Assembly (NCBI GenBank): GCA_024401565.1
Contig: JAKSKU010000019.1
Coordinates: 1-48,979 of the forward strand
Length of the DNA stretch: 48,979 nt
Direction: 5' to 3'
Source: Paludibacteraceae bacterium
GTDB lineage: Bacteria; Bacteroidota; Bacteroidia; Bacteroidales; Paludibacteraceae
A program made the translations under genes and the position numbers. This document shows, piece after piece, positions 838 to 13,740 of this stretch. The first letter of the stretch is position 1; every line of letters begins with the position of its first letter. The notes beneath the pieces were generated by a model that was not told where the DNA came from, did no database searches, and was given only the letters and a program-made list of their open reading frames with translations.

Positions 838-1270
838 CACCTGCAAGAAGAAGGGTTCGGGGCTTTTTTCTTCAAGGGAATCTCTGTAATCGAGCACGCT
901 GTGGCGTTGGATCTTCCGAATCGCTTTTGCGATGTCATTCCAAATTGGCAAGGTCTTCCTTTTGATAGACAAACAGAGTGTCGTTAATCTCTGATTCACG
1001 TCTCTCTGTTTGTTGTAATGGTCTGAAAGCAAAGTTTTCTTTTGGTCTGCACAACAGGTCTTCCTGATCCTCTGGTCAGGAGGCCCTGTTGTGCAATAAT
1101 TGCTTTGCAAGGAAGGAAAATGAGATGGCAAGGTATTCCTTTGGAAAAAAGCCAGAAGTGTCGCAAAAACTTGTTTTTTGTGTCTCTTCTGGCAGACCAG
1201 GATAAAGCAAGGTTTTCCTTTAGAATATGGATATGTCCGCTATTGCGGAAGAAATATAAGCTGGCGATGG
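838..1270. repeat. Spacer 1: mini-hairpin array with three larger hairpins
   Basis: About 430 bp without a convincing gene. Short hairpins with T-first loops: ACGC-TGTG-GCGT (896-907), ATCGC-TTTT-GCGAT (920-933), AAGG-TCTT-CCTT (950-961), AAAG-TTTT-CTTT (1031-1042), CAGG-TCTT-CCTG (1055-1066), TTGC-TTT-GCAA (1100-1110), AAGG-TATT-CCTT (1130-1141), AAGG-TTTT-CCTT (1209-1220), TCCGC-TATT-GCGGA (1236-1249). Larger stems: AAACAGAG/CTCTGTTT (about 968-1013), GCACAACAGG/CCTGTTGTGC (1049-1094, enclosing two smaller hairpins) and GCCAGAAG/CTTCTGGC (1151-1193). It lies between the terminator at 1271-1301 and the promoter at 767-798. Confidence 0.8.
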
Positions 1271-1301
1271 AAAAGCACCAGTCTCAAAATAAGACTGATG
1301 C
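1271..1301 (-). terminator. Intrinsic terminator after the 1885-1310 gene
   Basis: On the minus strand GCATCAGTCT and AGACTGGTGC form a 10-bp stem (one G-U) with a 7-nt loop, followed by CTTTTCC. It sits just past the stop at 1310. Confidence 0.75.
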
Positions 1302-1309
1302 AATTTGAA

Positions 1310-1885
1310 TTACTCAAAGACGAAAGGGTGTATGTAGAAGAATGTGTCGTCATCCTCGTATTCATACGAGTTGATGAACTCAATCATTTCGTCCTCTGTG
1401 CGGTCTCCCTGCTCGATGCCAGTTTTGGAAACCCAAAAGTCGATGGCGGTCTGAATATCGCAACAATCGTACATACAACCGCCGTCAAACAAGTCTCCGC
1501 TATAATCGGTGCAGCACTCCTCAGGGAAGAAATTACCTTCATCGTGAGTGTAAAAAACTTCGCATCCGCATTCACAGACTCTGAACGAGATAGATAGTCC
1601 GTCGTCAAGGACTCGGTTGATTTCTTCAAACAGTTCTGTGCAAGCATCCCAGGCTGATTCCGTCATAAAAGAAAGGATTCCTTTGTCTTCGTCCATTTCA
1701 GCCCAATAGACCTTGCCTCTGACAGAAATTTTTTTGTTTAAGAAGTCAATGCCGAAGTGTTTTGCCAGGTCATCGAGCCAAAGAGATTTTTCGTCGTCAA
1801 TAACTTTGACGAGTGCGTTTTTCAAGGCAGTGACTGCCTTTTCAGTTCCTGTAACTTTGTAGGTTGTGTCCGCATGATTTGCCAT
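1310..1885 (-). CDS. Hypothetical protein, YubB/Api92-like N terminus
   Basis: 191 residues, acidic, with a Cys-rich centre (CECGCEVFY at about 104-112, then ECC, GGCMYDCC). The opening MANHADTTYKVTG resembles the first strand of the YubB/DUF1281 ferredoxin-like family (Api92-like phage and plasmid proteins, which start M-x-N-W-x-x-N-x-L-x-x-x-G), but the usual Trp is missing, so this is only a suggestion. The Cys pairs could bind a metal. The start at 1885 follows the conserved TTACTTAATTTT leader. It is the third gene of the operon that starts at 2554 and is followed at once by the terminator at 1271-1301. Confidence 0.65.
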   Translation of the reverse strand: MANHADTTYKVTGTEKAVTALKNALVKVIDDEKSLWLDDLAKHFGIDFLNKKISVRGKVYWAEMDEDKGILSFMTESAWDACTELFEEINRVLDDGLSISFRVCECGCEVFYTHDEGNFFPEECCTDYSGDLFDGGCMYDCCDIQTAIDFWVSKTGIEQGDRTEDEMIEFINSYEYEDDDTFFYIHPFVFE

Positions 1886-1924
1886 AATTGTAAAATTAAG
1901 TAAAACAATACTTTTGAAATGTGC

Positions 1925-2074
1925 TTAATCGTAATAACCATCCCAATTAGAAAGATAGACTGTCTCCGACCAGTTGTAACGCATATTAAGGTCGGGATTC
2001 TTAGTTTTGACTTTTTTGAACTCTTTCAAAAAATAGGAAAGGTCAAAATCTAAAAATGTAAGAAAAACTCTCAT
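1925..2074 (-). CDS. Small 49-residue protein
   Basis: A short open frame reads MRVFLTFLDFDLSYFLKEF... and ends ...NWDGYYD. The ATG at 2074 lies 12 nt after the stop of the secreted-protein gene (2087) and the stop (1925-1927) lies 39 nt before the next start (1885), so it fills the only gap in this operon. Composition (aromatic, mixed charge, many Asp and Lys) looks like a soluble protein. No family recognised. Confidence rests on position and compactness, not on similarity. Confidence 0.5.
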   Translation of the reverse strand: MRVFLTFLDFDLSYFLKEFKKVKTKNPDLNMRYNWSETVYLSNWDGYYD

Positions 2075-2086
2075 ATTAGAATGAAT

Positions 2087-2554
2087 TTAGAATGAATATA
2101 GAAAATCAGTTTTTTTATTTATAGGAACGTGTTCCCAATAATTTGTCCAAAATTTATTATTCATATCCCTTTTGAAGAAATCAAAGTCGGAAATGCCGTA
2201 TTTCTTGCATAAAGCGATGAATCCGTCATCAGGGAAAATGGTGTCCTCCACAGATTCAACAGGAGAAAGCGAACCTCGTTTGTAAGCGTTGGCTGAGAAG
2301 AAGTTTCCATCTGGAAAGCGAGAAGACTTATCGTTGCAGTAATTGTCATTGGCGTGAAAAAACGCCACAACAGCATAGTCTCCATTGAACCCTTCGCATA
2401 GAGTAAGCCTTTTGTGTTCCAAATCGGAAGTCCTTATTGAATCAGGTGTATGCAAATGGTGTGTGATACCTGCACGGCTAATTTTGTTGAATCGTTGTGC
2501 CTGGAGAGGGCAAACCGACAAAAAAGCGACAAATAAATAAAATACCTTTTTCAT
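2087..2554 (-). CDS. Secreted 155-residue protein of unknown function
   Basis: The N terminus MKKVFYLFVAFLSVCPLQAQ is a clear Sec signal peptide with a predicted SPase I cut after QAQ, a typical Bacteroidota form. The mature part is about 135 residues, rich in Asp, Phe and Asn, with no lipobox, membrane helix or T9SS sorting tail, so it should be periplasmic or released. First gene of the 2554-1310 operon; the promoter is at 2614-2644. No family recognised. It is one of only two cargo proteins in the left part of the window that look exported. Confidence 0.7.
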   Translation of the reverse strand: MKKVFYLFVAFLSVCPLQAQRFNKISRAGITHHLHTPDSIRTSDLEHKRLTLCEGFNGDYAVVAFFHANDNYCNDKSSRFPDGNFFSANAYKRGSLSPVESVEDTIFPDDGFIALCKKYGISDFDFFKRDMNNKFWTNYWEHVPINKKTDFLYSF

Positions 2555-2613
2555 TAAAATTAAATTGTAAATAATACCAAAGGAAAGTGACCTAACACCT
2601 TCATTTTCATATG

Positions 2614-2644
2614 CAAATATACAAAAATTCTGCGTAACTACAAA
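2614..2644 (-). promoter_or_regulatory. Bacteroidota promoter for the 2554-1310 operon
   Basis: TTTG (2644-2641), 19-nt spacer, TATATTTG (2621-2614) on the minus strand. The spacer belongs to the TAGTTACGCAGAATTTTTG type shared with the promoter at 3572-3602. Confidence 0.85.
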
Positions 2645-2674
2645 GAAATCAATAGATTAAATACCAAAAAAGAG

Positions 2675-2960
2675 AAGAAACCATCTGAGTGGTCGGGGTT
2701 TTTCTTTCAAAGGGTATGGCAAGATCCAGGCACGCTATGGCGTTGGATCAGAACCGCCAAACCTGCACAATTCTCCGATTGTGCAGCTTAGGTGGTGTGT
2801 GAAGATCGAGATTGCTCTGGCAAAAGTCCAAAAGATAAAGCAAGGTCTTCCTTTGGTTTATCAGAATGTATTGATCGCTATGAGAAAGCAGGGTTTACCC
2901 TTGGAAAAAGAAGATCGGTTGGCAGGCTGTCGGATGCCACCGATCGCCACAGAAGCGAGA
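2675..2960. repeat. Spacer 2: mini-hairpin array
   Basis: No gene seen. Contains the conserved CGGGG-TTTTTCTTTCAAAGG block (2695-2713), ACGC-TATG-GCGT (2732-2743), a two-tier hairpin with inner stem CTGCACAAT/ATTGTGCAG (2763-2786) inside an ACCGCC/GGTGGT outer stem, TTGC-TCTG-GCAA (2812-2823), AAGG-TCTT-CCTT (2842-2853), AGGG-TTTA-CCCT (2890-2901) and a long stem GATCGGT..GGCA/TGCC..ACCGATC (about 2912-2946). Confidence 0.8.
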
Positions 2961-2963
2961 GTG

Positions 2964-2996
2964 AAAAAGTCGCCCCATATCACTACGGAACGACTT
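2964..2996 (-). terminator. Intrinsic terminator after the 3507-3032 operon
   Basis: On the minus strand AAGTCG...CGACTT followed by TTTTC forms a modest terminator about 35 nt past the stop at 3032. Confidence 0.55.
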
Positions 2997-3031
2997 CAAG
3001 TTTAATGTTTAGTTAAGTCCAAAGTTTAGCA

Positions 3032-3322
3032 CTAAATCAAACCTTTTGAAATGGCTTTTATTCGTTGGTTTCTAATTATGGTTGACTTGGGAAGATGTTT
3101 GTTCGCAAACACATCAATAGTGGTAGTGCCACGAAATCCGCCATGCTCGCCTTGCCAACGTATCGCTTTGTTGACAAAGGTAAGCATCTGCCTATTGTTG
3201 GATATAGACAAGAACTCAGAAGTCTCGTTCTTCTTCTCGCAGTAATTGAAGACTGCCATAATTGCGTCTTCGTTGCGATAGCCGAATTGTTTCATTTTTG
3301 TTGTAATTCTTGAATCCATCAT
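3032..3322 (-). CDS. Hypothetical 96-residue protein
   Basis: Basic small protein (about 96 residues; Lys/Arg-rich end RNQRIKAISKGLI). No signal or membrane segment and no family recognised. The ATG at 3322 overlaps the TGA of the upstream 62-residue gene in an ATGA arrangement, which points to translational coupling and supports both genes being real. The basic character and the helix-rich N terminus would fit a nucleic-acid-binding protein, but this is a guess. Confidence 0.6.
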   Translation of the reverse strand: MMDSRITTKMKQFGYRNEDAIMAVFNYCEKKNETSEFLSISNNRQMLTFVNKAIRWQGEHGGFRGTTTIDVFANKHLPKSTIIRNQRIKAISKGLI

Positions 3323-3507
3323 TTCAACTTTTTTAACGTGTCTTGATATTCTTTCTGCGCGTCTGCCATGCGTTTGTCATACTCCTTGCGAGAAATTCGG
3401 TCATAGTCCAAATCGTCAAACAAACGTCTTTCGGTATCGCTAAGTTTTTGTGCCGCAACTCCAAACAAAAAAAGTCTCTCGCCTTTAGAAATTTTGCGTG
3501 ATGCCAT
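3319..3507 (-). CDS. Hypothetical 62-residue charged protein
   Basis: A short, highly charged and probably all-helical protein (MASRKISKGERLFLFG... DAQKEYQDTLKKLK), possibly a coiled coil in its last 35 residues. The start at 3507 follows the conserved TTACTTAATTTTACATTT leader, and it is the first gene after the promoter at 3572-3602. It ends in an ATGA overlap with the next gene. No family recognised. Confidence 0.6.
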   Translation of the reverse strand: MASRKISKGERLFLFGVAAQKLSDTERRLFDDLDYDRISRKEYDKRMADAQKEYQDTLKKLK

Positions 3508-3571
3508 AAATGTAAAATTAAGTAAAACAAAAAAGTTAAGGAAAGGGGCGTAACTCCCTCATTTCCATACA

Positions 3572-3602
3572 CAAATATACAAAAATTCTGCGTAACTACA
3601 AA
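3572..3602 (-). promoter_or_regulatory. Bacteroidota promoter for the 3507-3032 operon
   Basis: TTTG (3602-3599), 19-nt spacer, TATATTTG (3579-3572) on the minus strand, nearly identical to the promoter at 2614-2644. Confidence 0.85.
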
Positions 3603-3641
3603 GAAATCAGCAGATTAAATACTAAAAATGTAGCGAAAAAT

Positions 3642-4030
3642 CACACCTGTAGGGACGGGGCTTTTTCTTCAAGGGATCATCATTAGCCAGGCACGCTGTT
3701 GCGTTAGAAGGAAGTGTGTTAGTTATGATAAACAAGACGGATTGCACGCTGTTGCGTTGGATCAGCACCGCCCAACCTGCTCAATTCTCTGATTGAGCTG
3801 CTTGGGTGGTGTCTGGAGATCGGGCTTGCTCTGTCAAAGGTCAGAATGTAACGCAGGCTGGCGAGCTTTGGCTTTAGGGACCAGGAGTTTTGAGGCAGAC
3901 TTTGGATGCCCCAAAACTCCCTGGAAATGGATGGCGGTGTGGTCAGGGAAAAGGTGTATTCAAAAAAGTCTTGAAAAAAACATTGATTACAGTGGAAAAC
4001 TGTATTCAAGAAAGTCAAAGATTATTTTCG
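3642..4030. repeat. Spacer 3: mini-hairpin array
   Basis: About 390 bp without a convincing gene. Conserved CGGGGCTTTTTCTTCAAGG block (3656-3674), ACGC-TGTT-GCGT twice (3693-3704, 3746-3757), the two-tier hairpin CACCGCCCAA..GCTCAAT/ATTGAGC..TTGGGTGGTG (3765-3812), a decayed TTGC-TCTG-TCAA (about 3826), a long stem GGAGTTTTG/CAAAACTCC (3884-3920) and TACAGT/ACTGTA (about 3989-4005). Two copies of a near-identical TGTATTCAAnAAAGTC tract lie at about 3955-3970 and 4002-4017. Confidence 0.75.
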
Positions 4031-4033
4031 GTG

Positions 4034-4068
4034 CAAAAAGAAAGCCGTTCCCAGTGGTGAGAACGGCT
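4034..4068 (-). terminator. Intrinsic terminator after the 4902-4097 operon
   Basis: On the minus strand AGCCGTTC and GAACGGCT form an 8-bp stem with a 10-nt loop, followed by TTCTTTTTG. It lies 29 nt past the stop at 4097. Confidence 0.85.
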
Positions 4069-4096
4069 GATGCACTGCATATATAAATCCTATTCC

Positions 4097-4507
4097 TTAC
4101 AAAGACGCAATAGAGTTATCGGAAGTTTCAGCATATTCATCAATATGTTGAATGATGTTGTAAAGGGTGTAAACTCCCATAAGGTCGCTACCCCATAGAG
4201 GGAAAACGTGATCGTTGTCGTTCCAATCTACGTTGTCCTCATTGAATTTTGAAAATTCGTCATCAATATAAACCCAAAGACCTTCGCCATTGCTTTTTAT
4301 AGCCTTGACTGCTTGTTCCGCAACTGAATCTCCACAACACACATAAGCATATATAGTTGAGCACTCATCGTAATATGTGAAGATTGTTTCATTATCGTAG
4401 TTCTTGCATAGTTCCGAAATGGTTTTGGCAACCAAACGGAAAATTTCGCTTATGCCTTTTCTTGCTTTGTCAAGCAACCAAATGTTATATTCTAAACTCA
4501 TAGCCAT
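4097..4507 (-). CDS. Hypothetical acidic 136-residue protein
   Basis: An acidic soluble protein (many Asp/Glu; DNVDWNDNDHVFPLW near residues 92-106) with a helical first third and no signal peptide. No family recognised. Two in-frame ATGs (4507 and 4501) are possible; I kept the first. It is the second gene of the operon starting at 4902 and is separated from it by 62 bp holding a 9-bp hairpin (4522-4546). Strong acidity is shared with several cargo proteins in this region, a feature also seen in DNA-mimic antirestriction proteins, but nothing here proves such a role. Confidence 0.6.
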   Translation of the reverse strand: MAMSLEYNIWLLDKARKGISEIFRLVAKTISELCKNYDNETIFTYYDECSTIYAYVCCGDSVAEQAVKAIKSNGEGLWVYIDDEFSKFNEDNVDWNDNDHVFPLWGSDLMGVYTLYNIIQHIDEYAETSDNSIASL

Positions 4508-4521
4508 AAAGAATTAAATTA

Positions 4522-4546
4522 CTTCCGTCGCTCTCACCGACGGAAG
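4522..4546 (-). other. Intercistronic hairpin, copy 1
   Basis: CTTCCGTCG and CGACGGAAG pair over 9 bp with the loop CTCTCAC. The same core, TCCGTCG-CTCTCAC-CGACGGA, recurs at 6105-6125, also between two genes of one operon. It may stabilise one part of the mRNA or lower downstream expression. Confidence 0.7.
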
Positions 4547-4569
4547 AGGATTAAAATAAAAACATACTA

Positions 4570-4902
4570 TCAGTCAGTAACCTCGCAATAGAAGGATAGT
4601 TCCTCGTTTTGCAGAGTGTTAAGAGCGAATGAATGAACCTCTTTCCAAAGAGTGTCATAAAGGCGAGAAAGAGGATCGGCATTCTTGTGTTTGCCTCGCA
4701 TTCCGTACCATTGCCAAATTTTGTGGTTCAGTACGATAGAAAGTTCTGTAAGATACTTGTAATCGTGTTTCCAACCTTCAAATGCAGAATCAAAGGTCTC
4801 TTTGATTGCGTCAACGCCGAAAGCATCTGCGACTGAGAAGTCCTCCCAAAATGTGGTTTCTTCTCTCTCTTCCTCAAAACGTGAAAAGCCAGGGAATAGC
4901 AT
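4570..4902 (-). CDS. Hypothetical acidic 110-residue protein
   Basis: Acidic, aromatic-rich soluble protein (FSRFEEEREETTFWEDF at about residues 6-22; WKHDYKYLTELSIVLNHKIWQWYG mid-protein). The middle section looks like a long amphipathic helix. No domain recognised. The ATG at 4902 follows the conserved TTACTTAATTTTATAC leader; first gene after the promoter at 4968-4999. Confidence 0.6.
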   Translation of the reverse strand: MLFPGFSRFEEEREETTFWEDFSVADAFGVDAIKETFDSAFEGWKHDYKYLTELSIVLNHKIWQWYGMRGKHKNADPLSRLYDTLWKEVHSFALNTLQNEELSFYCEVTD

Positions 4903-4967
4903 AAATGTATAAAATTAAGTAAGACAAAAAGTTAAGGAATGGGGCATAACTCCCTCATTTCCATATA

Positions 4968-4999
4968 CAAATATAGTAAAATTTCGGATAAATGCCAAA
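4968..4999 (-). promoter_or_regulatory. Bacteroidota promoter for the 4902-4097 operon
   Basis: TTTG (4999-4996), 20-nt spacer, TATATTTG (4975-4968) on the minus strand; nearly identical to the promoter at 767-798. Confidence 0.85.
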
Positions 5000-5034
5000 T
5001 AATCAGCAAATTAAATACTAAAAATGTGTTAAAA

Positions 5035-5290
5035 ATCGCACCTGCAGGGACGGGGCTTTTTCTTCAAGGGATCATCATAAGCCGAACACGCTTTTGCGTT
5101 GGAAAGAGGTGTGTTAGCTATGCTAAACAAGACGGATGGCACGCTGTTGCGTTAGCTCTGCACCGCCCAACCTGCTCAATTCTCTGATTGAGCTGCTTGG
5201 ATGGTGCATGGAGATCGGGCTTGCTTTGGCAAAGGGAAAGGGTTGAAAAGGCAAGGTTTTCCTTTAGAAGATGTGGTAAGGGCATTCTGA
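5035..5290. repeat. Spacer 4: mini-hairpin array
   Basis: Conserved CGGGGCTTTTTCTTCAAGG block (5051-5069), ACGC-TTTT-GCGT (5088-5099), TTAGC-TAT-GCTAA (5114-5126), ACGC-TGTT-GCGT (5141-5152), two-tier hairpin GCACCGCCCAA...TTGGATGGTGC (5160-5207) with inner GCTCAAT/ATTGAGC, TTGC-TTTG-GCAA (5221-5232) and AAGG-TTTT-CCTT (5253-5264). The order of elements is the same as in spacers 3 and 5. Confidence 0.8.
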
Positions 5291-5294
5291 TGCA

Positions 5295-5328
5295 AGAAAA
5301 AACGTCCAATCTTAACAGATGGACGTTT
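5295..5328 (-). terminator. Intrinsic terminator after the 6541-5346 operon
   Basis: On the minus strand AAACGTCCA and TGGACGTTT form a 9-bp stem followed by TTTCTTG, 18 nt past the stop at 5346. Confidence 0.85.
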
Positions 5329-5345
5329 GATCCTTGAATCAAGGA

Positions 5346-5540
5346 TTATTCGATAAATCCGATGTAAGAACAGTCATCGAAATCAAAATCACCATTGGGG
5401 TGTATGTCGGTGTCGATGCTGTAAAAAGAAATTTCAGAATGGGAGTCTTGCGAACAAGCGTCGTTGACGCATTCGGTGTAAGTGAGGAAGAGATCGCTGA
5501 CTCCGATCCCTTCCGAAAACCAAAGATAACGTGTTGCCAT
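5346..5540 (-). CDS. Hypothetical acidic 64-residue protein
   Basis: Small acidic protein, MATRYLWFSEGIGVSDLF... with the C-terminal half rich in Asp and Ser (SIDTDIHPNGDFDFDD). I chose the ATG at 5540; the in-frame ATG at 5555 (adding MIITI) is also possible and would put the start 7 nt after the upstream stop. No family recognised. Last gene of a four-gene operon ending at the terminator at 5295-5328. Confidence 0.55.
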   Translation of the reverse strand: MATRYLWFSEGIGVSDLFLTYTECVNDACSQDSHSEISFYSIDTDIHPNGDFDFDDCSYIGFIE

Positions 5541-5561
5541 GATGGTAATAATCAAGTGAAT

Positions 5562-5789
5562 TTATTCCCAATCCTCTGCGATGAAGAAGCACTCGAAAGA
5601 GTTGGCTTTGTTTCTCAAAGCGAAAAAACCGATTCCAGACTCCACAATAGAAGACTTGTATGATAATTTCATAGCCTCCAATCTTTTGAGTGCCATTTCA
5701 TAAGAAGGGAAAAGGTCGGAAGTAACTGACTGTTCGTACTCGGCAGAGAAAGAAGAATGTTTGATTTTGAAAACACGAGTTTTTTCCAT
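5562..5789 (-). CDS. Hypothetical 75-residue protein
   Basis: MEKTRVFKIKHSSFSAEY... ending in ...ANSFECFFIAEDWE; a mixed alpha/beta soluble protein without a recognised domain. The start at 5789 is preferred over an upstream in-frame ATG at 5876, because it follows a TTTAATTTTACTTC leader and avoids a 29-residue overlap with the previous gene. Third gene of the 6541-5346 operon. Confidence 0.6.
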   Translation of the reverse strand: MEKTRVFKIKHSSFSAEYEQSVTSDLFPSYEMALKRLEAMKLSYKSSIVESGIGFFALRNKANSFECFFIAEDWE

Positions 5790-5847
5790 AGAAGTAAAAT
5801 TAAAGTTAAAGGAAAGGGGGCAGACTGCCCCAATTCCCCAAATAAAA

Positions 5848-6063
5848 TCAGTAGTCCAACTTGCAGGATTCTCCAATTTTAGGAGTTACCTCATAGCGGA
5901 TTTTAGCCATCTGCTCAGAGCGGATAAGCCAGTTGTCTGCGTTAAGCTCGATCTTCTTGTTTGAAGAATGAGGAACAAGAGGGGTTTCCTGCTTCTTGTC
6001 CTCCTTCAAAGATGAACTAAGAGCAAACAATATCAAACCCAATAAAAGCATGAATTTTGCCAT
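5848..6063 (-). CDS. Small exported or membrane-anchored 71-residue protein
   Basis: The first ~18 residues (MAKFMLLLGLILFALSSS) form a hydrophobic signal or anchor helix. The rest, about 50 residues, is charged and soluble (LKEDKKQETPLVPHSS...). There is no lipobox Cys, so it is either cleaved by SPase I or stays as an N-terminal anchor. The start at 6063 follows the TTACTTAATTTTTACACT leader. Second gene of its operon. Confidence 0.65.
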   Translation of the reverse strand: MAKFMLLLGLILFALSSSLKEDKKQETPLVPHSSNKKIELNADNWLIRSEQMAKIRYEVTPKIGESCKLDY

Positions 6064-6104
6064 AGTGTAAAAATTAAGTAAAAAAATAAAGTAGTTAAAG
6101 AATG

Positions 6105-6125
6105 TCCGTCGCTCTCACCGACGGA
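6105..6125 (-). other. Intercistronic hairpin, copy 2
   Basis: TCCGTCG-CTCTCAC-CGACGGA, identical core to the hairpin at 4522-4546. It lies between the stop at 6131 and the start at 6063. Confidence 0.7.
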
Positions 6126-6130
6126 AATAA

Positions 6131-6669: not shown

Positions 6670-6952
6670 AAATCACACCTGTAGGGACGGGGCTTTTTCT
6701 TCAAGGGATCTTCATAAGCCAGGCACGCTTTTGCGTTGGAAAGATGTGTGTTGGTTATGCCAAACAAGACGGATGGCACGCTATGGCGTTGGATCAGCAC
6801 CGTCCAACCTGCTCAATTCTCCGATTGGGCAGCTTAGACGGTGCCTGGTAATATGGGCTTGCTCTGCAATAGGAAGGGGTTAAAAGGCAAGGTCTCACTT
6901 AGTCTGGAGTAGCCAGGCTTGCTTTGGCAAAAGGTGGAAACAAAGCGGAGGG
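6670..6952. repeat. Spacer 5: mini-hairpin array
   Basis: Conserved CGGGGCTTTTTCTTCAAGG block (6688-6706), ACGC-TTTT-GCGT (6725-6736), TTGG-TTATG-CCAA (about 6751-6763), ACGC-TATG-GCGT (6778-6789), two-tier hairpin GCACCGTC...GACGGTGC (6797-6844), TTGC-TCT-GCAA (6859-6869), a decayed AAGG-TCTCA-CTT (about 6889) and TTGC-TTTG-GCAA (6919-6930). The outer stem here is GTC/GAC where spacers 3 and 4 have GCC/GGT or GCC/GAT. Confidence 0.8.
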
Positions 6953-6987
6953 CAAAAAAATACGCCAGTCTTCACAGATTGACGTAT
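6953..6987 (-). terminator. Intrinsic terminator after the 8196-7036 operon
   Basis: On the minus strand ATACGTCA and TGGCGTAT pair (one G-U) and are followed by a run of seven T. It is 49 nt past the stop at 7036. Confidence 0.8.
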
Positions 6988-8292: not shown

Positions 8293-8329
8293 GAAATCAA
8301 CAAATTAAATACTAAAAATGTAGTAAAAA

Positions 8330-8582
8330 ATCGCACCTGCAGGGACGGGGCTTTTTCTTCAATGGAGACATCAGAAGCCCAGGCACGCTATGGCGTTGGA
8401 GGTGTGCTGACGACACTCCGAACTTTGCGGAGGAATGTGATCAGCTGCGACCGCTTAGCGGAAACTGAATACGGACAGGCACGCTGTTGCGTTGGGGTTA
8501 GGTGATGGGCTTGCTCTGGCAAAGGGTAAGAGGTTGGAAAGGCAAGGTTTTCCTTTAGGGGAAGCTGGATGGGGCGACCAGG
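8330..8582. repeat. Spacer 6: mini-hairpin array
   Basis: Conserved CGGGGCTTTTTCTTCAA block (8346-8362), ACGC-TATG-GCGT (8385-8396), a composite fold with outer GCTGA/TCAGC (about 8406-8445) around CTCCG/CGGAG (about 8416-8432), CCGC-TTA-GCGG (about 8451-8461), ACGC-TGTT-GCGT (8481-8492), TTGC-TCTG-GCAA (8511-8522) and AAGG-TTTT-CCTT (8544-8555). The composite fold recurs at 12354-12395 with GCTGG/CCAGC. Confidence 0.8.
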
Positions 8583-8613
8583 AAAAAAGAAGGACAGCCC
8601 CGAAGGACTGTCC
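8583..8613 (-). terminator. Intrinsic terminator after the PcfJ-like gene
   Basis: On the minus strand GGACAG...CTGTCC with an inner CC/GG pair is followed by TTCTTTTTTCC; it starts 3 nt past the stop codon at 8617. Confidence 0.85.
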
Positions 8614-8616
8614 GGA

Positions 8617-9978
8617 TCAGGCGGAGACTCTGACCTGGGAAGCGGTCTCCGTCATCTTCTTTTTACGCATGATCTTCTTGATGGAAAGCATATTGTCATT
8701 GACAAGGCTGACGATCTGATCGTGGAAGTCGGTATGCGAGTTGCAGACACCTCTGCTTTGGACTACGCAGAACCCTTTAAGACTGACCTCCACGGTCTCC
8801 AGCCTGTTGCCGTCGATGTCCCTTGCTGTGAGGATAAGGGAATCCTTTTCCTTGTAATAACCTCTCGCATAGACGCAATGGTGCATCTTGGTGCCTTCCT
8901 CTTCAAATTCGGCAACGGAGAGAAGAGGTCTGACGAAGACAGTTCCGTTGTTGAAGGCGAGGGAGAAGAAGTCTTCCTTGTCTGTCCTGTAACGTGACTC
9001 CCATTTGCGTGCCTCCTGGCGACGCTGCTCATCCTCCTTCCTCTTTTCCTTTTGATCTTTAAGGGCGATGAACTTGTCGTGAGCCGCCTTTAGGTCAAAA
9101 GGGCAGACATAGTGAGGGGAGTGGAGGTCTTTGCCGAGATATTCGAGGGCACGGAGAAGGTCAACCCAAAGAGAAGCGTCCTTGATGATGTATTTGTTTC
9201 TGTTGCAGATGTTGACTGCGAACATATAAGGGATTTCGGACTCCGAACCGCAGACCATTTTGAGCATAGAGACCTGGGTGGTCTTTGCGAGGCATTCGCA
9301 CATAGGGTCGGTCAGAAGCCTTGAAGCGAGGACGGAAGGAGTGATGCCGAAGAAGTCACCGCTGAATCCGTTTCTTTTAAGGACAGGAATAACCCTTGTG
9401 CGAGGGCAGTAGAAGTCGGGATTGATTGCGTAGATGTCATATCCGTAGTAGGAAGGGGCTTTGTGCTTGACGGACATGGGCTTGTCGAAGTTCCAACCGT
9501 CATTGCACCTCGCCCCCATGAACGCCTGGTCTCTTGCGACGATGGTGGTCTTTCCGTCCTCGCCGATCCAGTGCTGAACAGCCTCCAGCACGGAGATAAC
9601 GGCATCACGGTTTTTTGCCGACTCCTTCTTGATCCAAAAGTGACGGAAGACCTGATAGCCGGAACACGTTGTCACGACAGTCATATAGGCGGTGTCATAG
9701 TGGACCGAACCGACGGAGTTTTCCTTTACAACGAGGTGCTTGCCACAGTGAGGGCAGACCGTAGTCTTGTTGTCATCGTCGAGGATGTCGACAAGGCGAG
9801 TCTTGACGGAAATGCCGAGGGGCTGACCGCACTCACCGCACCAGGAGTTACGCCTGTTCACATAGGCGAAGCGGAGGTCAATTTTTTTTACAGCCCAATC
9901 CCTTTGCGAGGGGGATAAGGAAGGGAGTCTTGAAGACAGTTCCCAAACCCTTTTTTCCACTTTAGTTCTCGGTGTCAT
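8617..9978 (-). CDS. PcfJ-like protein
   Basis: 453 residues. The N-terminal part has a zinc-ribbon-like pair (CGECG near residue 43 and CPHCG near 77) and the C-terminal part holds the PcfJ-type block (LSVAEFEEEGTKMHHCVY, then SLILTARDIDGNRLETVEV). PcfJ was named from the Enterococcus pCF10 conjugation region and the family is widespread on plasmids, phages and ICEs of Firmicutes and Bacteroidota; its biochemical role is not settled. The start at 9978 is 3 nt downstream of the PcfK stop, the classic PcfK-PcfJ order. Last gene of a five-gene operon. Confidence 0.85.
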   Translation of the reverse strand: MTPRTKVEKRVWELSSRLPSLSPSQRDWAVKKIDLRFAYVNRRNSWCGECGQPLGISVKTRLVDILDDDNKTTVCPHCGKHLVVKENSVGSVHYDTAYMTVVTTCSGYQVFRHFWIKKESAKNRDAVISVLEAVQHWIGEDGKTTIVARDQAFMGARCNDGWNFDKPMSVKHKAPSYYGYDIYAINPDFYCPRTRVIPVLKRNGFSGDFFGITPSVLASRLLTDPMCECLAKTTQVSMLKMVCGSESEIPYMFAVNICNRNKYIIKDASLWVDLLRALEYLGKDLHSPHYVCPFDLKAAHDKFIALKDQKEKRKEDEQRRQEARKWESRYRTDKEDFFSLAFNNGTVFVRPLLSVAEFEEEGTKMHHCVYARGYYKEKDSLILTARDIDGNRLETVEVSLKGFCVVQSRGVCNSHTDFHDQIVSLVNDNMLSIKKIMRKKKMTETASQVRVSA

Positions 9979-9981
9979 AGG

Positions 9982-10410
9982 TCAGTCAAAAAGGGTTGGA
10001 CGATTCTGTTCGTTGTCTGCCGACTCCTTTGAGGAAGTCTTTTTCGCTTTGAGGTTGTTAGCGACCATCTGGTCATACAGTGCCTTTTGGTACTGCTTCA
10101 TAGCCTCTGCCCTTGCTTCCTCCTTCTGCTCGTCTGTGAGTTCGACATGATAGTTGCAAGTGACTTGGTAGTTGACATTCTGATCGATCTTGACATCAGA
10201 TTCGTCATAGTAATGTACGGCAAGACCGTAGACCTCGGAGTCTTCAAGACCACACACGCCCATTTTACGGACTTCGGACGCAATGAAGTCACAGCATTGG
10301 GAGATCGATTTGTCGGGGTTCGCATATTTGAGGGCGAACACGGAGTCATTTGACGCAAACTCGTCAAGATATTTTTTGATAGCGTTCTCAAACGCCAATG
10401 TTTGTTTCAT
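9982..10410 (-). CDS. PcfK-like protein
   Basis: 142 residues, mostly helical, matching the PcfK-like family: an N-terminal FENAIKKYLDEFA helix, KSISQCCDFIASEVRKMG in the middle, and a charged C-terminal tail (ELTDEQKEEARAEAMKQYQK) ending ...QNRPTLFD. I chose the ATG at 10410, which follows the TTACTTAATTTTCTTTGCG leader, over the upstream in-frame ATG at 10476. It is coupled to the PcfJ-like gene 3 nt downstream. Function unknown; the pair probably works together in plasmid biology. Confidence 0.85.
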   Translation of the reverse strand: MKQTLAFENAIKKYLDEFASNDSVFALKYANPDKSISQCCDFIASEVRKMGVCGLEDSEVYGLAVHYYDESDVKIDQNVNYQVTCNYHVELTDEQKEEARAEAMKQYQKALYDQMVANNLKAKKTSSKESADNEQNRPTLFD

Positions 10411-10446
10411 CGCAAAGAAAATTAAGTAAGACAATAAAAATAGGGG

Positions 10447-10465
10447 GGTGGGGGCAAGCCCCACC
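10447..10465 (-). other. Intercistronic GC hairpin
   Basis: GGTGGGG-GCAAG-CCCCACC (7 bp) between the 10473 stop and the PcfK start; on the minus strand a CCCCTATTTTTATTG stretch follows, so it could attenuate expression of PcfK/PcfJ. Confidence 0.6.
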
Positions 10466-10472
10466 GAAAGAA

Positions 10473-10913
10473 TCAAAAGTTTGAAATGGAAAGGAGAGTG
10501 CCGTACCCATCAATCACGTTGACCTCCACGTTGTCGAAAGGCTTCTCGTTTGGAGGGAGGTTTTCAAGCCTTTCGGCATACTCCTCCTGAGACCATTCAG
10601 GATCACGCTCGACAACGCTGTCGAGGGCTTCCCCGATATTGTCGCAATAGAGGTCGGACACGCATCGAGTCTCCTTTCCGTCCTTGTCAAAAAGACGGAC
10701 TACATAAGTGTCGGATGAATCGTCGTAAGAAACGAGGGCGAGACCTTTGTGAAGGAGACCGTTGACTGCGAGGAGGAGAGAGGGCTGATCCTTGAAATAA
10801 GCGGCGCCGACATTAGCGACTCCCCAAGACCAGTAGGTGCTTATTCCGACACCTGCGATTATTTGGTGAAGGATAGTGTCGGCTATTCCGACAAGATACG
10901 AATTTTGTGCCAT
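10473..10913 (-). CDS. Phage/plasmid-type hypothetical protein, 146 residues
   Basis: The sequence starts MAQNSYLVGIADTILHQIIAG and contains a hydrophobic helix-like segment (SLLLAVNGLLHKGLALVSY) followed by a strand-rich part with VVRLFDKDGKE. It resembles the small mobile-element proteins that begin I-A-x-x-I-L-x-Q-L-G-G, known in many phages and plasmids without assigned function. The start at 10913 follows the conserved TTACTTGATTTTTACATCT leader, preferred over the in-frame ATG at 10937. Third gene of the 11404-8617 operon. Confidence 0.7.
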   Translation of the reverse strand: MAQNSYLVGIADTILHQIIAGVGISTYWSWGVANVGAAYFKDQPSLLLAVNGLLHKGLALVSYDDSSDTYVVRLFDKDGKETRCVSDLYCDNIGEALDSVVERDPEWSQEEYAERLENLPPNEKPFDNVEVNVIDGYGTLLSISNF

Positions 10914-10958
10914 AGATGTAAAAATCAAGTAAAACAAATAAATAAAGAACCATAGGTT

Positions 10959-11165
10959 TTATATAATCCTGTCCTCAGGGTCAAGCCATTTTTTTATCAA
11001 AACCCTTTGGATTTTGCTGACATCGTTAATCACTTCTTTGTCATCGTAATAGAATCTTGAAATATTCCTATCCGCGCAGACAGACTGAACGATGTCACTG
11101 ATTCGCCAATCTTCGTTTATATTCCATTTTTTGACGAACTCTTTAGCTTCTTTGTAAGTCATCAT
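10959..11165 (-). CDS. Hypothetical 68-residue protein
   Basis: MMTYKEAKEFVKKWNINEDW... ; small, helical, with a basic C terminus (VLIKKWLDPEDRII). The ATG pair at 11165/11162 lies 2 nt after the TGA of the previous gene, so translation is probably coupled. No family recognised. Second gene of the 11404-8617 operon that ends with PcfK and PcfJ. Confidence 0.6.
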   Translation of the reverse strand: MMTYKEAKEFVKKWNINEDWRISDIVQSVCADRNISRFYYDDKEVINDVSKIQRVLIKKWLDPEDRII

Positions 11166-11167
11166 AG

Positions 11168-11404
11168 TCAGTGGATGTAGTATGTGTAACGGAAGTTGTT
11201 TTCGGAGCAGGAGAACGAGTTGTCGCAAACCTGAGTGCAGTCGAAAGTAGCCTCGTTAGAGGCGCGTCTGCCGTGGATTCTAAAAAGATGCTCCTTGCAA
11301 AGTTCAAGTGAACCCTTGAAGATCACTTTCAGTCTGCCCTGGTACATATAGCCGTCATTGCCTTTGAAGACGGATTTACGGCAAAGTTCAAATTCCTTTT
11401 CCAT
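11168..11404 (-). CDS. Hypothetical Cys-containing 78-residue protein
   Basis: MEKEFELCRKSVFKGNDGYMYQGRLKV... ; small beta-rich protein with five Cys, including CTQVCDNSFSC near the C terminus. The start at 11404 follows the TTACTTAATTTTCTTCGAT leader, preferred over the in-frame ATG at 11470. First gene of the operon that carries PcfK/PcfJ; promoter at 11468-11499. No family recognised. Confidence 0.6.
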   Translation of the reverse strand: MEKEFELCRKSVFKGNDGYMYQGRLKVIFKGSLELCKEHLFRIHGRRASNEATFDCTQVCDNSFSCSENNFRYTYYIH

Positions 11405-11467
11405 ATCGAAGAAAATTAAGTAAGACAATAAGTAAGGGAAAGAGGCTAACTGCCTCATTTCCATACA

Positions 11468-11499
11468 CAAATATACAAATTTTTTTGCGTAACTGCAAA
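11468..11499 (-). promoter_or_regulatory. Bacteroidota promoter for the PcfK/PcfJ operon
   Basis: TTTG (11499-11496), 20-nt spacer, TATATTTG (11475-11468) on the minus strand. No hairpin array separates this promoter from the next unit upstream; the stop of the 61-residue gene is only 55 bp away. Confidence 0.85.
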
Positions 11500-11554
11500 G
11501 AAATCAGCAGATTAAATACTAAAAAATAAGTAAGGAATGATTAGTGTTCGGTGG

Positions 11555-11740
11555 TTACTCCTTGCAATCAGTCCAATCCTTGCAATCGGTAGGTTTATGG
11601 ACAGAAAACTGATGCTTCATATCTGCAATTACCTGATTTTTCTTTTGGCAGATATATTTTCTTACACCTATGTCCACAATACCAAACTTACAAGTATAGC
11701 AACATTCAAATCGAAACCATCTTTCAAAATCTTCATCCAT
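11555..11740 (-). CDS. Hypothetical Cys-rich 61-residue protein
   Basis: MDEDFERWFRFECCYTCKFG... with Cys at C-C-x2-C in the first third, one C in KYICQKK, and two near the end (TDCKDWTDCKE). The pattern suggests a small metal-binding or disulfide protein of the C-x2-C type. Starts 12 nt after the stop of the preceding gene (11753), so the two form an operon. No family recognised. Confidence 0.55.
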   Translation of the reverse strand: MDEDFERWFRFECCYTCKFGIVDIGVRKYICQKKNQVIADMKHQFSVHKPTDCKDWTDCKE

Positions 11741-11752
11741 CGTAATAGAAAA

Positions 11753-12103
11753 TTAAAGTAAGGAAAGATCGGTATTCGGTTTCACATCAATCATGTCATC
11801 GTAAGAGTCAACGATTTTGCCTACAGCGTCACGAAACAAACCAGTATTGACGATCTGCAAGAAAGATTCTTTGTAAATCTCGCAATTATCGGAGTTTTTG
11901 ACAAAATCCAACATCAACTCCAAAATTTTAGGAAGGTCGTGGCATGAGAATATGCCATGACCAATCATCATGAGGTATTGAGGTATATAGAGAGAGGCAG
12001 ACCAATTTTCATAGACCATCATCAAACCAACTTTATTCTTCTGTGTGTAGGACATGAACTCACTCATGGATTCCCAACGCCAATTACCATAATAAACTAA
12101 CAT
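11753..12103 (-). CDS. Hypothetical 116-residue protein
   Basis: MLVYYGNWRWESMSEFMSYTQ... ; all-helical looking, Met- and aromatic-rich, ending VKPNTDLSLL. I chose 12103 rather than the in-frame ATG at 12211 because the longer form would run back into the promoter (12170-12200). No recognised domain. First of two genes in its unit. Confidence 0.55.
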   Translation of the reverse strand: MLVYYGNWRWESMSEFMSYTQKNKVGLMMVYENWSASLYIPQYLMMIGHGIFSCHDLPKILELMLDFVKNSDNCEIYKESFLQIVNTGLFRDAVGKIVDSYDDMIDVKPNTDLSLL

Positions 12104-12169
12104 AAGATTAGAAATTAAAGTTAAAAACTGTACCAAAGAGGGGAGGGCTAACTGCCTGATTCCCATACA

Positions 12170-12200
12170 CAAATATAGCAAAAAATAACGTAACTGCAAA
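12170..12200 (-). promoter_or_regulatory. Bacteroidota promoter for the 12103-11555 operon
   Basis: TTTG (12200-12197), 19-nt spacer, TATATTTG (12177-12170) on the minus strand. Confidence 0.85.
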
Positions 12201-12234
12201 GAAATCAGCAAATTAAATACTAAAAATGTAGCGA

Positions 12235-12469
12235 AAAAAGCACCTGAGGAGGTCGGGGCTTTTCCTTCAAGGGAGACATCAGAAGCCCAGGCACGCTATG
12301 GCGTTGGAAAGGCATGGGGGGCAAGCCAGGCACGCTGTTGCGTTGGAGGGGTGGCTGGCGACACTCCGAGCTTTGCGGAGGAATGTGACCAGCCGCGACC
12401 GCTAAGCGGAAACGGAATGAGGACAGGCACGCTATGGCGTTTGGGGCAGTGATCAAGCCTGCTGTGGCA
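12235..12469. repeat. Spacer 7: mini-hairpin array
   Basis: ACCT-GAGG-AGGT (12242-12253) before the conserved CGGGGCTTTTCCTTCAAGG block, ACGC-TATG-GCGT (12293-12304 and 12429-12440), ACGC-TGTT-GCGT (12332-12343), the composite fold with outer GCTGG/CCAGC and inner CTCCG/CGGAG (about 12354-12395), and CCGC-TAA-GCGG (about 12399-12409). CTGC-TGTG-GCAG (12459-12470) joins the array to the first terminator. Confidence 0.8.
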
Positions 12470-12496
12470 GAAAAAAAGAGTGAGCCGGATGCTCAC
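12470..12496 (-). terminator. Intrinsic terminator, distal
   Basis: On the minus strand GTGAGC-ATCCG-GCTCAC is followed by TCTTTTTTT. It is the third of three terminators downstream of radC. Confidence 0.8.
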
Positions 12497-12580
12497 GCAA
12501 AAGGCTCACGACTGGTAAAATAAAATTCCCCGAATAAGGGGAAGTGAACTTCAAGCAAAGATATGCAAAAAATGGGAAAA
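12497..12580. other. Short non-coding stretch with two hairpins
   Basis: TTCCCC-GAATAA-GGGGAA (12526-12543) overlaps GAAGT-GA-ACTTC (12541-12552). No gene seen. Confidence 0.6.
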
Positions 12581-12615
12581 GAAAAAGCCCCACGCTCTTC
12601 ACAGGCAAGTGGGGC
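12581..12615 (-). terminator. Intrinsic terminator, middle
   Basis: On the minus strand GCCCCAC...GTGGGGC (7 bp) is followed by TTTTTCTTTTC. Confidence 0.85.
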
Positions 12616-12696
12616 AAATAAAACAATACAAATACGTTTAATACCCCACAAAAGGGGATGATTAAGAAAATATTCCACGGACGCAAATATACGGAA

Positions 12697-12726
12697 AAAA
12701 GGCGACATTCTTCGCAGAGTGCCGCC
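12697..12726 (-). terminator. Intrinsic terminator, proximal to radC
   Basis: On the minus strand GGCGGCA...TGTCGCC (7 bp, one G-U) followed by TTTTTTCC, 28 nt past the radC stop. A TATATTTG box (12691-12684) lies directly after it, so a short minus-strand RNA ending at the 12581-12615 terminator is possible but unproven. Confidence 0.8.
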
Positions 12727-12754
12727 TTGGTGATATAAAAGGATTTATATAGGA

Positions 12755-13378
12755 CTATTGAAAGTCAAGATTCTCGTTGTCGTCGAAAGAGTAGTAGCCG
12801 TCCTTTGTGACTATCAGGTGGTCGATAAGACGGATTCTCATGAGCCTGCAGCCACGGACTATCTCGGCGGTGGACTCAATGTCGTAAGAGGATGGCTTAG
12901 CCACGCCAGAAGGGTGGTTGTGGGCTATTGCGACATGGGTGCAGTTGTTGTCAAGGGCGTGCTTGACAATCATGCGCACATCAAGAAGGGAGCAGTCAAG
13001 AGAGCCTTTGGAGAGGAGTATTCTCCTGGTTATTCTGCATCCTGCGTCAATGAGCATGAGCCACACCTCCTCGCAAGTGGCGTTGTCGAAAACGGGCGCT
13101 ATGTAGTTGTAGATGTCGGCTGAACACTGAACCTTGCAGGGGGCGTCCGTCTTCTTGCGAGTGAAAAGGGTGTGGAGAGCCTTGATTTTCTCGGCGGTCT
13201 TCTTCCCGATGCCCTCAAACTCTGCGAGTTTGGCGAGGGAGGGAGTTCCGTACTCGAAATAGTCGCTGAGAAGAAGGGCGTTCTCCTCGTTGCCAGTGAC
13301 GATAGAAAGAAGCTCGGAGTTGGAAAGCGAGTTCCACCCGAAAGTCTCGGCATAGCCGACAAGATTGGTTTTAGCCAT
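12755..13378 (-). CDS. radC: RadC-like JAB/MPN domain protein
   Basis: 207 residues. A helix-hairpin-helix segment (FEGIGKKTAEKIKAL, about 54-68) precedes a RadC-type JAB domain: HNHPSG at 153-158, Asp166, and an upstream Glu (EEVW, about 103-106), the usual metal-binding set of JAMM folds. RadC proteins were once thought to act in DNA repair, but their role is unsettled; many are carried by mobile elements in Bacteroidota. The start at 13378 (MAKTNLVGYAETFGW) follows the conserved TTTAATTTTACTCTT leader. It is a single-gene unit with its own promoter and three tandem terminators. Confidence 0.9.
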   Translation of the reverse strand: MAKTNLVGYAETFGWNSLSNSELLSIVTGNEENALLLSDYFEYGTPSLAKLAEFEGIGKKTAEKIKALHTLFTRKKTDAPCKVQCSADIYNYIAPVFDNATCEEVWLMLIDAGCRITRRILLSKGSLDCSLLDVRMIVKHALDNNCTHVAIAHNHPSGVAKPSSYDIESTAEIVRGCRLMRIRLIDHLIVTKDGYYSFDDNENLDFQ

Positions 13379-13438
13379 AAGAGTAAAATTAAAGTAAAAC
13401 AACATAGGGAAAGGGGCTAACTGCCTCATTTCCATATA

Positions 13439-13470
13439 CAAATATAGTAAAATTTCGGATAAATACCAAA
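13439..13470 (-). promoter_or_regulatory. Bacteroidota promoter for radC
   Basis: TTTG (13470-13467), 20-nt spacer, TATATTTG (13446-13439) on the minus strand; practically the same as at 767-798 and 4968-4999. Confidence 0.85.
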
Positions 13471-13499
13471 TAATCAGCAAATTAAATACTAAAAAAGTG

Positions 13500-13740
13500 G
13501 CAAAAAAACGCACCTGCAGGACGGGGCTTTTCCTTCAAGGGCGGGATCATAAGCCAGGCACGCTGTTGCGTTGGAGGAGAGGGATGGGGATAAGGCAAGG
13601 TCTCCCTTTGGAGGAAAGGACGGCTGTGGCGTTGTGGAAAAGCGGCTCTGGCGCAGGGGGAGGATGACGGCGAAAAAAGCGACGGGGCGAACCCCACCGC
13701 ATAAAATTAAGTAAAACAAATAAAACAAATAAAATCAAGT
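13500..13740. repeat. Spacer 8: mini-hairpin array and leader remnant
   Basis: CCTGCAGG followed by the CGGGGCTTTTCCTTCAAGG block, ACGC-TGTT-GCGT (13560-13571), AAGG-TCTC-CCTT (13597-13608), two decayed hairpins (CGGC-TGTG-GCGT near 13622; GCGGC-TCTG-GCGC near 13642) and GGGG-CGAA-CCCC (about 13684-13695). At 13702-13740 the standard TTACTTAATTTT leader is present twice in tandem and is followed by an ATG, but the frame reads straight through the hairpins and is not believed. Confidence 0.7.

Follow-up and report, generated by a model that had tools for sequence, protein, structure and literature searches.

Described Hairpin Systems and the Analysed Window

Integron attC sites conserve their fold over their letters, with one strand that matters, R and L boxes with a GTT/AAC core, and an integron integrase, and in sponge RNAs of the CsrB/RsmZ type many small hairpins follow one another, differing in their stems but sharing one recognition motif. 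On the integrative and conjugative element (ICE) ICEBs1, the single-strand origin sso1 consists of three hairpins, is active only when single-stranded, and is orientation-specific (PMC4595007). Two further sources describe Frpo, in which the −35 and −10 boxes are folded into the structure (PMC11541004), and repetitive extragenic palindromes (REPs) with GTAG/CGTC tags (PMC3733652). The stretch compared here with these systems (the window) is the entire 48,979-base contig JAKSKU010000019.1 of a Paludibacteraceae bacterium, contig C11 among the 53 contigs of a 2.18 Mb genome; it carries part of what looks like an ICE, with arrays of tiny hairpins in the spacers between minus-strand genes left of 14.3 kb.

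The window shares with integron attC sites a conserved fold and the importance of a single strand, but has many hairpins per site; an integrase-family search found no integron integrase on the element, and the attC core letters were not searched for. Like the CsrB/RsmZ RNAs, it combines an array of small hairpins, varied in their stems, with a fixed motif; that motif is a different one. The likeness to sso1 and to plasmid single-strand origins lies in the presence of hairpins on an ICE; the window differs in having eight clear arrays, tens of tiny hairpins, swapped stems, fixed flanks, and a position upstream of promoters. Frpo and ssi sites resemble the arrays as structured DNA upstream of small genes of conjugative elements, and a gene for a single-stranded DNA-binding protein (SSB) is found in the corresponding block of the relatives; however, the promoter boxes of the window lie outside convincing stems, and the arrays are located away from the candidate origin of transfer (oriT). 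REPs and bacterial interspersed mosaic elements (BIMEs) with their REP-associated tyrosine transposase (RAYT) are also short, intergenic, multi-copy hairpins with small loops (PMC3733652 and PMC8266576), whereas the window units lack the GTAG/CGTC tag, keep one orientation, have interchangeable stems, and were found, in the searches made, in one type of element only.

An earlier note on this DNA knew of no described family that fits exactly, and this still holds: the Rfam 15 covariance models, run over the whole window, gave 0 matches up to E 0.5, none of the REP and Frpo features tested was clearly present, and titles and abstract openings in the literature searched name no family like the stem-swapping hairpin unit.

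Hairpin Arrays and Strand Specificity

The analysis confirmed that the hairpin pattern is real, strand-specific, and present in two relatives, with pairing, loop, and flanks conserved. Hairpins with at least four Watson-Crick stem pairs and a loop of 4 nucleotides (nt) were counted in nine spacers (3,211 bases), and 100 dinucleotide shuffles served as controls. Loops of the form T-N-T-N were found 33 times on the plus strand, versus 0.81 ± 0.95 in shuffled sequence (maximum 4). The shuffled control proposed in the earlier note therefore did not reproduce the hairpin counts, and all seven examples quoted there were found within 838-13608, one of which (CAGG-TCTT-CCTG, 1055) sits within an arm of a longer hairpin. 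Hairpins with any loop numbered 43 (13.5 ± 3.1 in shuffled sequence), and 35 of these begin the loop with T (3.1 ± 2.0), as the earlier note had claimed; the other loop starts showed no excess, with two A-first (3.8 expected), four C-first (2.4), and two G-first (3.8) loops. The two T-first loops outside the T-N-T-N form are TGAA and TAAC. In the adjacent coding DNA (6,717 bases) no excess of T-N-T-N was observed (3 versus 2.7 ± 1.6), and the mirror loop N-A-N-A, which corresponds to a minus-strand reading, showed no clear excess in the spacers (2 versus 0.95 ± 0.93). Many of the hairpins are copies of one another, and near-identical copies are common within the window; among distinct sequences of w1-w8 with at least two G/C in the stem, 16 of 19 hairpins with four-base loops were T-first. 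Loops of 3 nt starting with T also occur, accounting for all 7 distinct ones in the window and for 8 of the 13 in the relatives, and the relatives additionally show the T-first loops TCAT, TGCT, and TCAG.

The tiny hairpins are distributed over all nine spacers on the plus strand. Spacer w1 (846..1290) contains T-first hairpins at 896, 920, 950, 1031, 1055, 1130, 1209, and 1236, together with three long imperfect hairpins. Four spacers combine tiny hairpins with one long hairpin each: w2 (2691..2985; 2732, 2812, 2842, and 2890; long hairpin near 2753), w3 (3656..3975; 3693 and 3746; near 3766), w4 (5051..5330; 5088, 5141, 5221, 5253, and 5282; near 5159), and w5 (6686..6985; 6725, 6778, and 6919; near 6797). 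Tiny hairpins are listed for w6 (8341..8570; 8385, 8481, 8511, and 8544), w7 (12256..12500; 12293, 12332, 12429, and 12459), and w8 (13516..13660; 13560 and 13597). The short last spacer w9 (14140..14240) has a left-boundary motif and one weak candidate, GGGG-TGTT-CCCC, at 14204. This plus-strand motif (A-run ... T-run, TTCAAGGG) lies near the left spacer ends at six sites in the window (3662..3676, and also 864, 2699, 5057, 6694, and 14166) and at seven sites in the two relatives.

The Repeated Unit: Stems, Loop, and Flanks

Across the spacers of the three elements, the T-N-T-N units comprise 48 distinct sequences, which use 12 different 4-bp stems. The last base of the loop was T or G in 41 of these units, C in six, and A in one. 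On the 5′ side, G occupies position −2 in 38/48 units, a purine position −3 in 42/48, and a pyrimidine position −1 in 35/48; on the 3′ side, T is found at +1 in 27/48, G at +3 in 36/48, and A at +4 in 27/48. The resulting flank consensus, RGY ... TRGA, is kept while the stems swap.

Thirty of the 33 window hairpins (27 distinct) were aligned, with those at 1031, 5282, and 14204 left out; their 100% pairing holds by construction because the rows were picked for pairing. The third stem pair was G-C in all 30 rows and differs in two of the three hairpins left out, and the other three pairs vary on both sides. Cells changed on both sides numbered 31 versus 8.4 in shuffled rows, and the covariation score reached 0.80 versus 0.15 ± 0.04 (at most 0.25 when slid), while the number of pairs with two-sided changes (3; shuffled 2.9) and of further pair types (6; 5.4) showed no clear excess. 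At homologous places of paralogous spacers the stem is AAGG/CCTT in w2 and w4 and ACGC/GCGT in w6 and w7; w3, w5, and w8 have imperfect versions of the hairpin there.

The suggestion that selection acts on the fold and not on the sequence held in its first half, being supported by the shuffles, the unit statistics, the covariance-model matches, and the compensation in the largest ortholog pair. Its second half did not, as conservation extends to the loop and to the flanks on both sides (G at −2 and G at +3), and this conservation points to recognition of the unit by something.

Long Hairpins, Folding, and Covariation Between Orthologs

The tiny hairpins alternate with long, imperfect ones, whose arms measure 13-30 bases and contain scattered mismatches. 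In 23 of the long hairpins, scored in a strand-neutral way, G-T outnumbered A-C (35 versus 17) and T-T outnumbered A-A (10 versus 3), with C-C 6 versus G-G 5 and C-T 5 versus A-G 9; since orthologs are among these rows, which are not independent, the mismatch bias carries no claim of significance. RNA folding of the largest spacers was far better than that of shuffled sequence, with z values of −13.8 (G007) and −9.9 (G001) for the plus strand and −10.3 and −10.0 for the minus strand, G007 and G001 being the two same-genus genomes with arrays. The difference from shuffled sequence was weak in several small spacers. With DNA parameters, the mean z over 15 spacers was −3.5 for the plus and −4.2 for the minus strand.

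Compensation was evaluated against a null in which letters were dealt anew among paired columns of equal base (1000 trials), pooling long and tiny hairpins. The largest spacer is 76% identical between G007 and G001. Using the structure derived from G007 only, nine compensatory changes were observed versus 2.9 ± 1.6 expected (reached in 2 of 1000 trials) and 25 broken pairs versus 40.7 ± 3.4; using that from G001 only, the values were 8 versus 3.0 ± 1.6 and 32 versus 44.5 ± 2.8. A second ortholog pair was 98% identical and too similar to tell, and the third (75%) had 0 and 1 compensatory changes (1.3 and 0.8 expected) and 13 and 9 broken pairs (10.6 and 10.8). A change of one stem arm without the other had been named as evidence against the fold. 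Such changes do occur, at 3826 (TTGC-TCTG-TCAA) and 6889 (AAGG-TCTC-ACTT), and the two shorter ortholog pairs lend no support to compensation, but in the largest pair broken pairs are fewer and compensatory ones more numerous than expected.

Promoters, Terminators, and Direction of Transcription

Bacteroidetes-type promoters have the consensus TTTG-N18-22-TAnnTTTG. In the first 14.4 kb of the window, a consensus scan found nine sites on the minus strand and none on the plus strand. One of these, at 767..798, serves the minus-strand unit adjoining w1, and the others are located at 2614-2644, 3572-3602, 4968-4999, 6605-6635, 11468-11499, 12170-12200, 13439-13470, and 14078-14109; a one-mismatch variant near 8265 (minus strand) was read by eye. 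Eight of these ten promoters have a clear array directly upstream, that at 14078 has a short one, and that at 11468 has none. In the relatives, the gene and hairpin strands had 8 and 1 sites in locus L065 (9001-20000) and 8 and 0 in part of locus L083, which gives 25 promoters on the gene strand versus 1 on the hairpin strand in the stretches scanned of the three elements. The sole hairpin-strand promoter is situated to the right of the last G007 array and points away from it. A looser pattern added plus-strand sites at 1888, in the gap between two genes of one unit, and at 14287, at the start of a plus-strand block, neither of them inside a hairpin array. No Bacteroidetes-type promoter reads the hairpin strand inside the spacers of the window.

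Terminator-like sites were found on the minus strand at right spacer ends (e.g., 1301, 4068, 8613, 12496, and 13700), and weak ones on the plus strand at left boundaries (3646, 6678, 12243, and 14148). The hairpins do lie between terminators and promoters, as the earlier note had stated. A sigma-70-type scan yielded 34 sites on both strands versus 23.2 ± 4.7 in shuffled sequence. As a separate observation, the minus-strand transcripts seem to start with a hairpin, GGAAATGAGGG...CCTTTCC, at 735-761 and at similar places beside the minus promoters; its 5′ arm is fixed and its 3′ arm varies, and, judged by eye, it is similar in both relatives.

Distribution in Related Elements and Databases

Among 300 genomes of the family, close relatives of the window's relaxase were found in four other genomes of the same genus. 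Two of these, on contigs G001:C15 and G007:C25, have arrays of the same kind; there too the arrays separate small genes, and their order with respect to PcfJ, the tra genes, and the relaxase is that of the window. A covariance model built from window rows alone, in line with the earlier proposal, was searched against the window and 42 of 190 loci (822,266 bases). It recovered 29 of the 30 training rows and, outside the window, gave seven matches with E up to 0.11: two in L065 arrays, four in L083 arrays, and one in a coding region (L083, 2268). The next matches were one in the L065 array (E 0.38) and one in L185, which is contig C29 from the window's own genome (E 0.41). With the limit raised to E 10, L065 had six matches, L083 eight, and the remaining 40 loci 13 between them; every L065 match lay on the plus strand and every L083 match on the minus strand, as the orientation of the elements requires. 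The unit is therefore present in two same-genus elements on the corresponding strand.

No array was detected in the more distant element of G006, where the model was applied to C68 1-80,000 and a plain count to the whole contig. A PcfJ match was found in 30 genomes of the family; in the 20 regions of 18 other genomes that were scanned, the model revealed no array and nothing below E 1. The G005 contig, with 8,879 bases, is too short to show whether an array is present. A loose count (at least three T-N-T-N in 700 nt) found groups in five of the 20 other PcfJ regions (L127, L128, L132, L137, and L142). With a span of 800 nt, four more groups turned up outside the arrays, three on G001:C15 and one on G007:C25, and the flanks at these four places do not fit. 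Flank-scored clusters (at least two motifs in 600 nt) occurred in seven of 188 locus strands, five of which represent the three elements (two of them twice), one a Cas12a-like array, and one L144 (two units). L144 (JAKSHY010000017.1) has a PcfJ 54% identical to that of the window and comes from a genome labelled Lachnospiraceae, possibly misbinned. In G007:C25, L088 ~10620-12990 is an array of clustered regularly interspaced short palindromic repeats (CRISPR) with a period of ~64 nt and a repeat hairpin TCTAC-TATT-GTAGA, of the T-N-T-T loop form, which we take to be type V-A-like. Mimicry of Cas12a repeats was considered and rejected: the CRISPR repeat shares the loop form, but its stem is fixed and unlike the window stems.

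A Megablast search of PLSDB with window positions 1-14400 found no match. Of the 153 PLSDB records matched by the relaxase, none reached 60% identity or spanned more than 80% of the query, and five of the 39 PLSDB records with PcfJ contained no clusters and one covariance-model match at E 1.3. In IMG/VR, the relaxase and the PcfJ alignment had no matches; a scan for exact units gave 14 single matches, and none of their loci had three T-N-T-N per kb except L029 (minus strand). Another 24 IMG/VR stretches retrieved with a two-hairpin pattern were judged by eye to be repeats or chance. The viral loci L152 and L160 (IMGVR_UViG_2700989045_000001) show an AAGG-TGTA-CCTT hairpin at more than one place of one 66-kb contig. 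Across 393 genomes of the order, the two-hairpin pattern occurred in two, namely the own genome and one with a chance-like match.

Possible Function of the Arrays

Three options had been offered in the earlier note: a cruciform, DNA that is single-stranded during transfer, and RNA that begins at an unseen start on the plus strand. The first is disfavoured, since a cruciform would treat both strands alike, while the loop form (33 T-N-T-N on the plus versus 2 on the minus strand) and the mismatch bias are tied to one strand; a single strand therefore remains, of DNA or of RNA. We favour DNA because Bacteroidetes-type plus promoters are lacking in the spacers, SSB, RadC, and conjugation genes lie near, and the plus strand would be the transferred one. 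The last point follows from an analogy: in RP4, the relaxase operon enters last, and the same order here would make the plus strand the one transferred by the relaxase.

Our best reading, tentative and put at somewhat short of an even chance, is that the arrays are structures acting on single-stranded DNA, probably on the transferred strand. Each spacer would be an array of DNA structures that act in the single-stranded form of the plus strand and are set ahead of the transcription units in the accessory block. After transfer or in rolling-circle replication, the long hairpins could maintain the fold of the region and leave it partly uncovered by SSB. The tiny hairpins, flanked by RGY ... TRGA, might be docking points for a protein (a primase, an RNA polymerase, or a protein of the ICE), from which the second strand would be started or the small genes nearby expressed early. 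Such a function would resemble that of sso, ssi, and Frpo sites, in a new form and in many copies. A more specific version is doubtful but deserves stating: the arrays may form an undescribed class, with a multi-hairpin array on the transferred strand before nearly each transcription unit and the tiny, stem-swapping hairpin with TNTK loop and RGY/TRGA flanks as the unit recognised by a protein acting on the entering single strand, a Bacteroidales answer to Frpo and ssi. For conjugative elements of Bacteroidales, neither the way in which genes are turned on immediately after entry nor the copying of the incoming strand is settled, to our knowledge. The accessible text of a survey of single-strand promoters contains no word beginning with "Bacteroid" (PMC11541004). 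The signature can be scanned for with a predicted strand and position, which makes the idea testable.

Several results weigh against this reading. In G007, the arrays lie at 173-177 kb, the oriT candidate at 213 kb, and the integrase at 224 kb, and in a circular form the arrays would enter after an estimated 20 kb or more; no array adjoins the oriT candidate in G007 or G001, and its nic site was not identified. As a rule, an element carries known sso or ssi sites in one or a few copies. In DNA-parameter folds of promoter plus spacer for w1-w8, judged by eye, the promoter boxes were mostly unpaired or in weak A+T pairs, so promoter-in-stem folding of the Frpo kind was not convincing; a plain Frpo-like site is disfavoured because the arrays are far from oriT and the boxes are not in stems. 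Folding energies with RNA or DNA parameters fail to separate the plus from the minus strand, minus-strand structures of the largest ortholog pair also show compensatory changes, if more weakly (six in both directions; 2.6 and 2.2 expected), and two of the three ortholog pairs do not support compensation. Some sigma-70-type plus matches fall inside spacers (e.g., 1073-1100). Finally, the arrays are dispensable for related elements, as they were not found in the G006 element or in the 20 PcfJ regions.

The strongest rival, which we consider unlikely but not negligible, is that every spacer gives rise to a non-coding plus-strand transcript, 150-600 nt long and made of tiny and long hairpins, which would serve as scaffold or sponge for a protein that binds RNA by recognising the UNUK loop and UGGA flank. 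The strand bias is shared by this explanation, and the tolerance of G-U pairs, the covariation, the plus-strand folding z of the largest spacers, the conserved left boundary, and the sigma-70-type plus matches agree with it. However, it lacks a Bacteroidetes-type plus promoter inside the spacers, the clear right-end terminators are on the minus strand (the plus ones being weak and confined to left boundaries), and Rfam gave no match up to E 0.5. GNRA and UNCG loops are favoured in structured RNAs, and loops of these types show no excess here, 2/43 four-base loops being G-first (3.8 expected) and TGAA and TAAC being the T-first loops outside T-N-T-N. If the unit were RNA, it would represent a new structured-RNA family with an unusual stem-swapping hairpin.

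Two further explanations are improbable. The tiny hairpins could be mobile miniature palindromes, REP/RAYT-like or similar to mitochondrial double hairpins, that spread through the spacers; the window has many near-identical copies, and Y1 transposases occur in all five genomes searched, but homologous places show swapped stems and not insertions, and the flank consensus of the 48 units has no GTAG or CGTC tag. Two window units sought by pattern were found only on C11 of the own genome, and no array was present at the three places examined (G007:C25:230 kb and G001:C15:68.5 and 116 kb) among 22 listed Y1 places. It is just as improbable that the units act as double-stranded operators next to the promoters, where a dimeric regulator would bind an inverted repeat whose halves are 4 bp apart: adjacency to promoters, conserved flanks, and the invariant G-C third pair of the 30 rows speak for this, whereas loop conservation is asymmetric, pairing is kept in the long hairpins too, and the stems are exchanged for unrelated sequences, a change hard to reconcile with a dimer that reads bases. 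Least probable are attC-like recombination sites that shuffle small-gene units as cassettes. The fold-conserved, strand-fixed hairpins do lie between units with gene turnover (11 of 31 frames matched), but each spacer holds several hairpins and the sole integrase-family match on the element contigs of G007 and G001 is at the element end, other contigs carrying more.

The Conjugative Element and Neighbouring Genes

The earlier note spoke of plasmids; the element looks like an ICE instead, because the window encodes a relaxase, a coupling protein, and MobC and is syntenic with integrase-bearing elements. The window itself has no integrase; a tyrosine integrase is located 11-12 kb past the oriT candidate in syntenic elements, at their end in G001, G006, and G007. 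By Pfam, the minus strand of the window encodes a TraG-type (TraG/YWFCY) coupling protein (42970-45369), a MobA/VirD2-like relaxase (45432-47738), and a MobC-like accessory protein (47758..48258); a TraO-like match was below its cut-off. The oriT candidate (48340..48400) is a stretch upstream of mobC that contains an inverted repeat and that alignment showed to be conserved in five elements, the inverted repeat being less clear in G005. Direct repeats of at least 15 bases at the element ends were absent from the stretches compared, and tRNA-Gln was rejected as the integration site, as a second copy of its ends was not found.

Among the hairpin spacers, also on the minus strand and identified with Pfam, lie a PcfJ-like gene (8617..9978), a PcfK-like gene (9982-10476), and, between w7 and w8, a RadC-like (JAB domain) frame (12755..13513; the longest frame, with the true start probably lower). 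Of ten block proteins analysed using Pfam, PcfK and one LRR_5 protein were above the cut-off and the other eight below. Of the 31 frames of at least 60 aa predicted left of 14.3 kb, some of them spurious, 11 had a tblastn match in the fetched relatives, some of these matches being short. Window bases 1-55 are identical to the last 55 bases of contig C29 (G000:C29, L185), which, because of this overlap, is probably the left neighbour of the window; C29 has a gene for SSB whose strand is that of the genes of the block, and an SSB gene lies within the corresponding block in both G007 and G001.

Other features were noted farther along the window. A purine-rich stretch with recurring short motifs (14594-15380) separates a plus-strand promoter from a 751-aa gene. 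A 3,375-aa protein (24416-34543) has a weak Ig-like (CHU_C associated) match below the cut-off and tblastn relatives in G001, G006, and G007. A restriction-modification pair of the BsuBI/PstI type and an N-6 methylase that has a specificity domain (36447-38821 and 39491-42121) had no tblastn match in the fetched stretches of G001, G005, G006, and G007. The contig end (48760-48979), ~400 bases past the oriT candidate, consists of tandem 9-mers (GTGCGTAAY), at which the assembly breaks.

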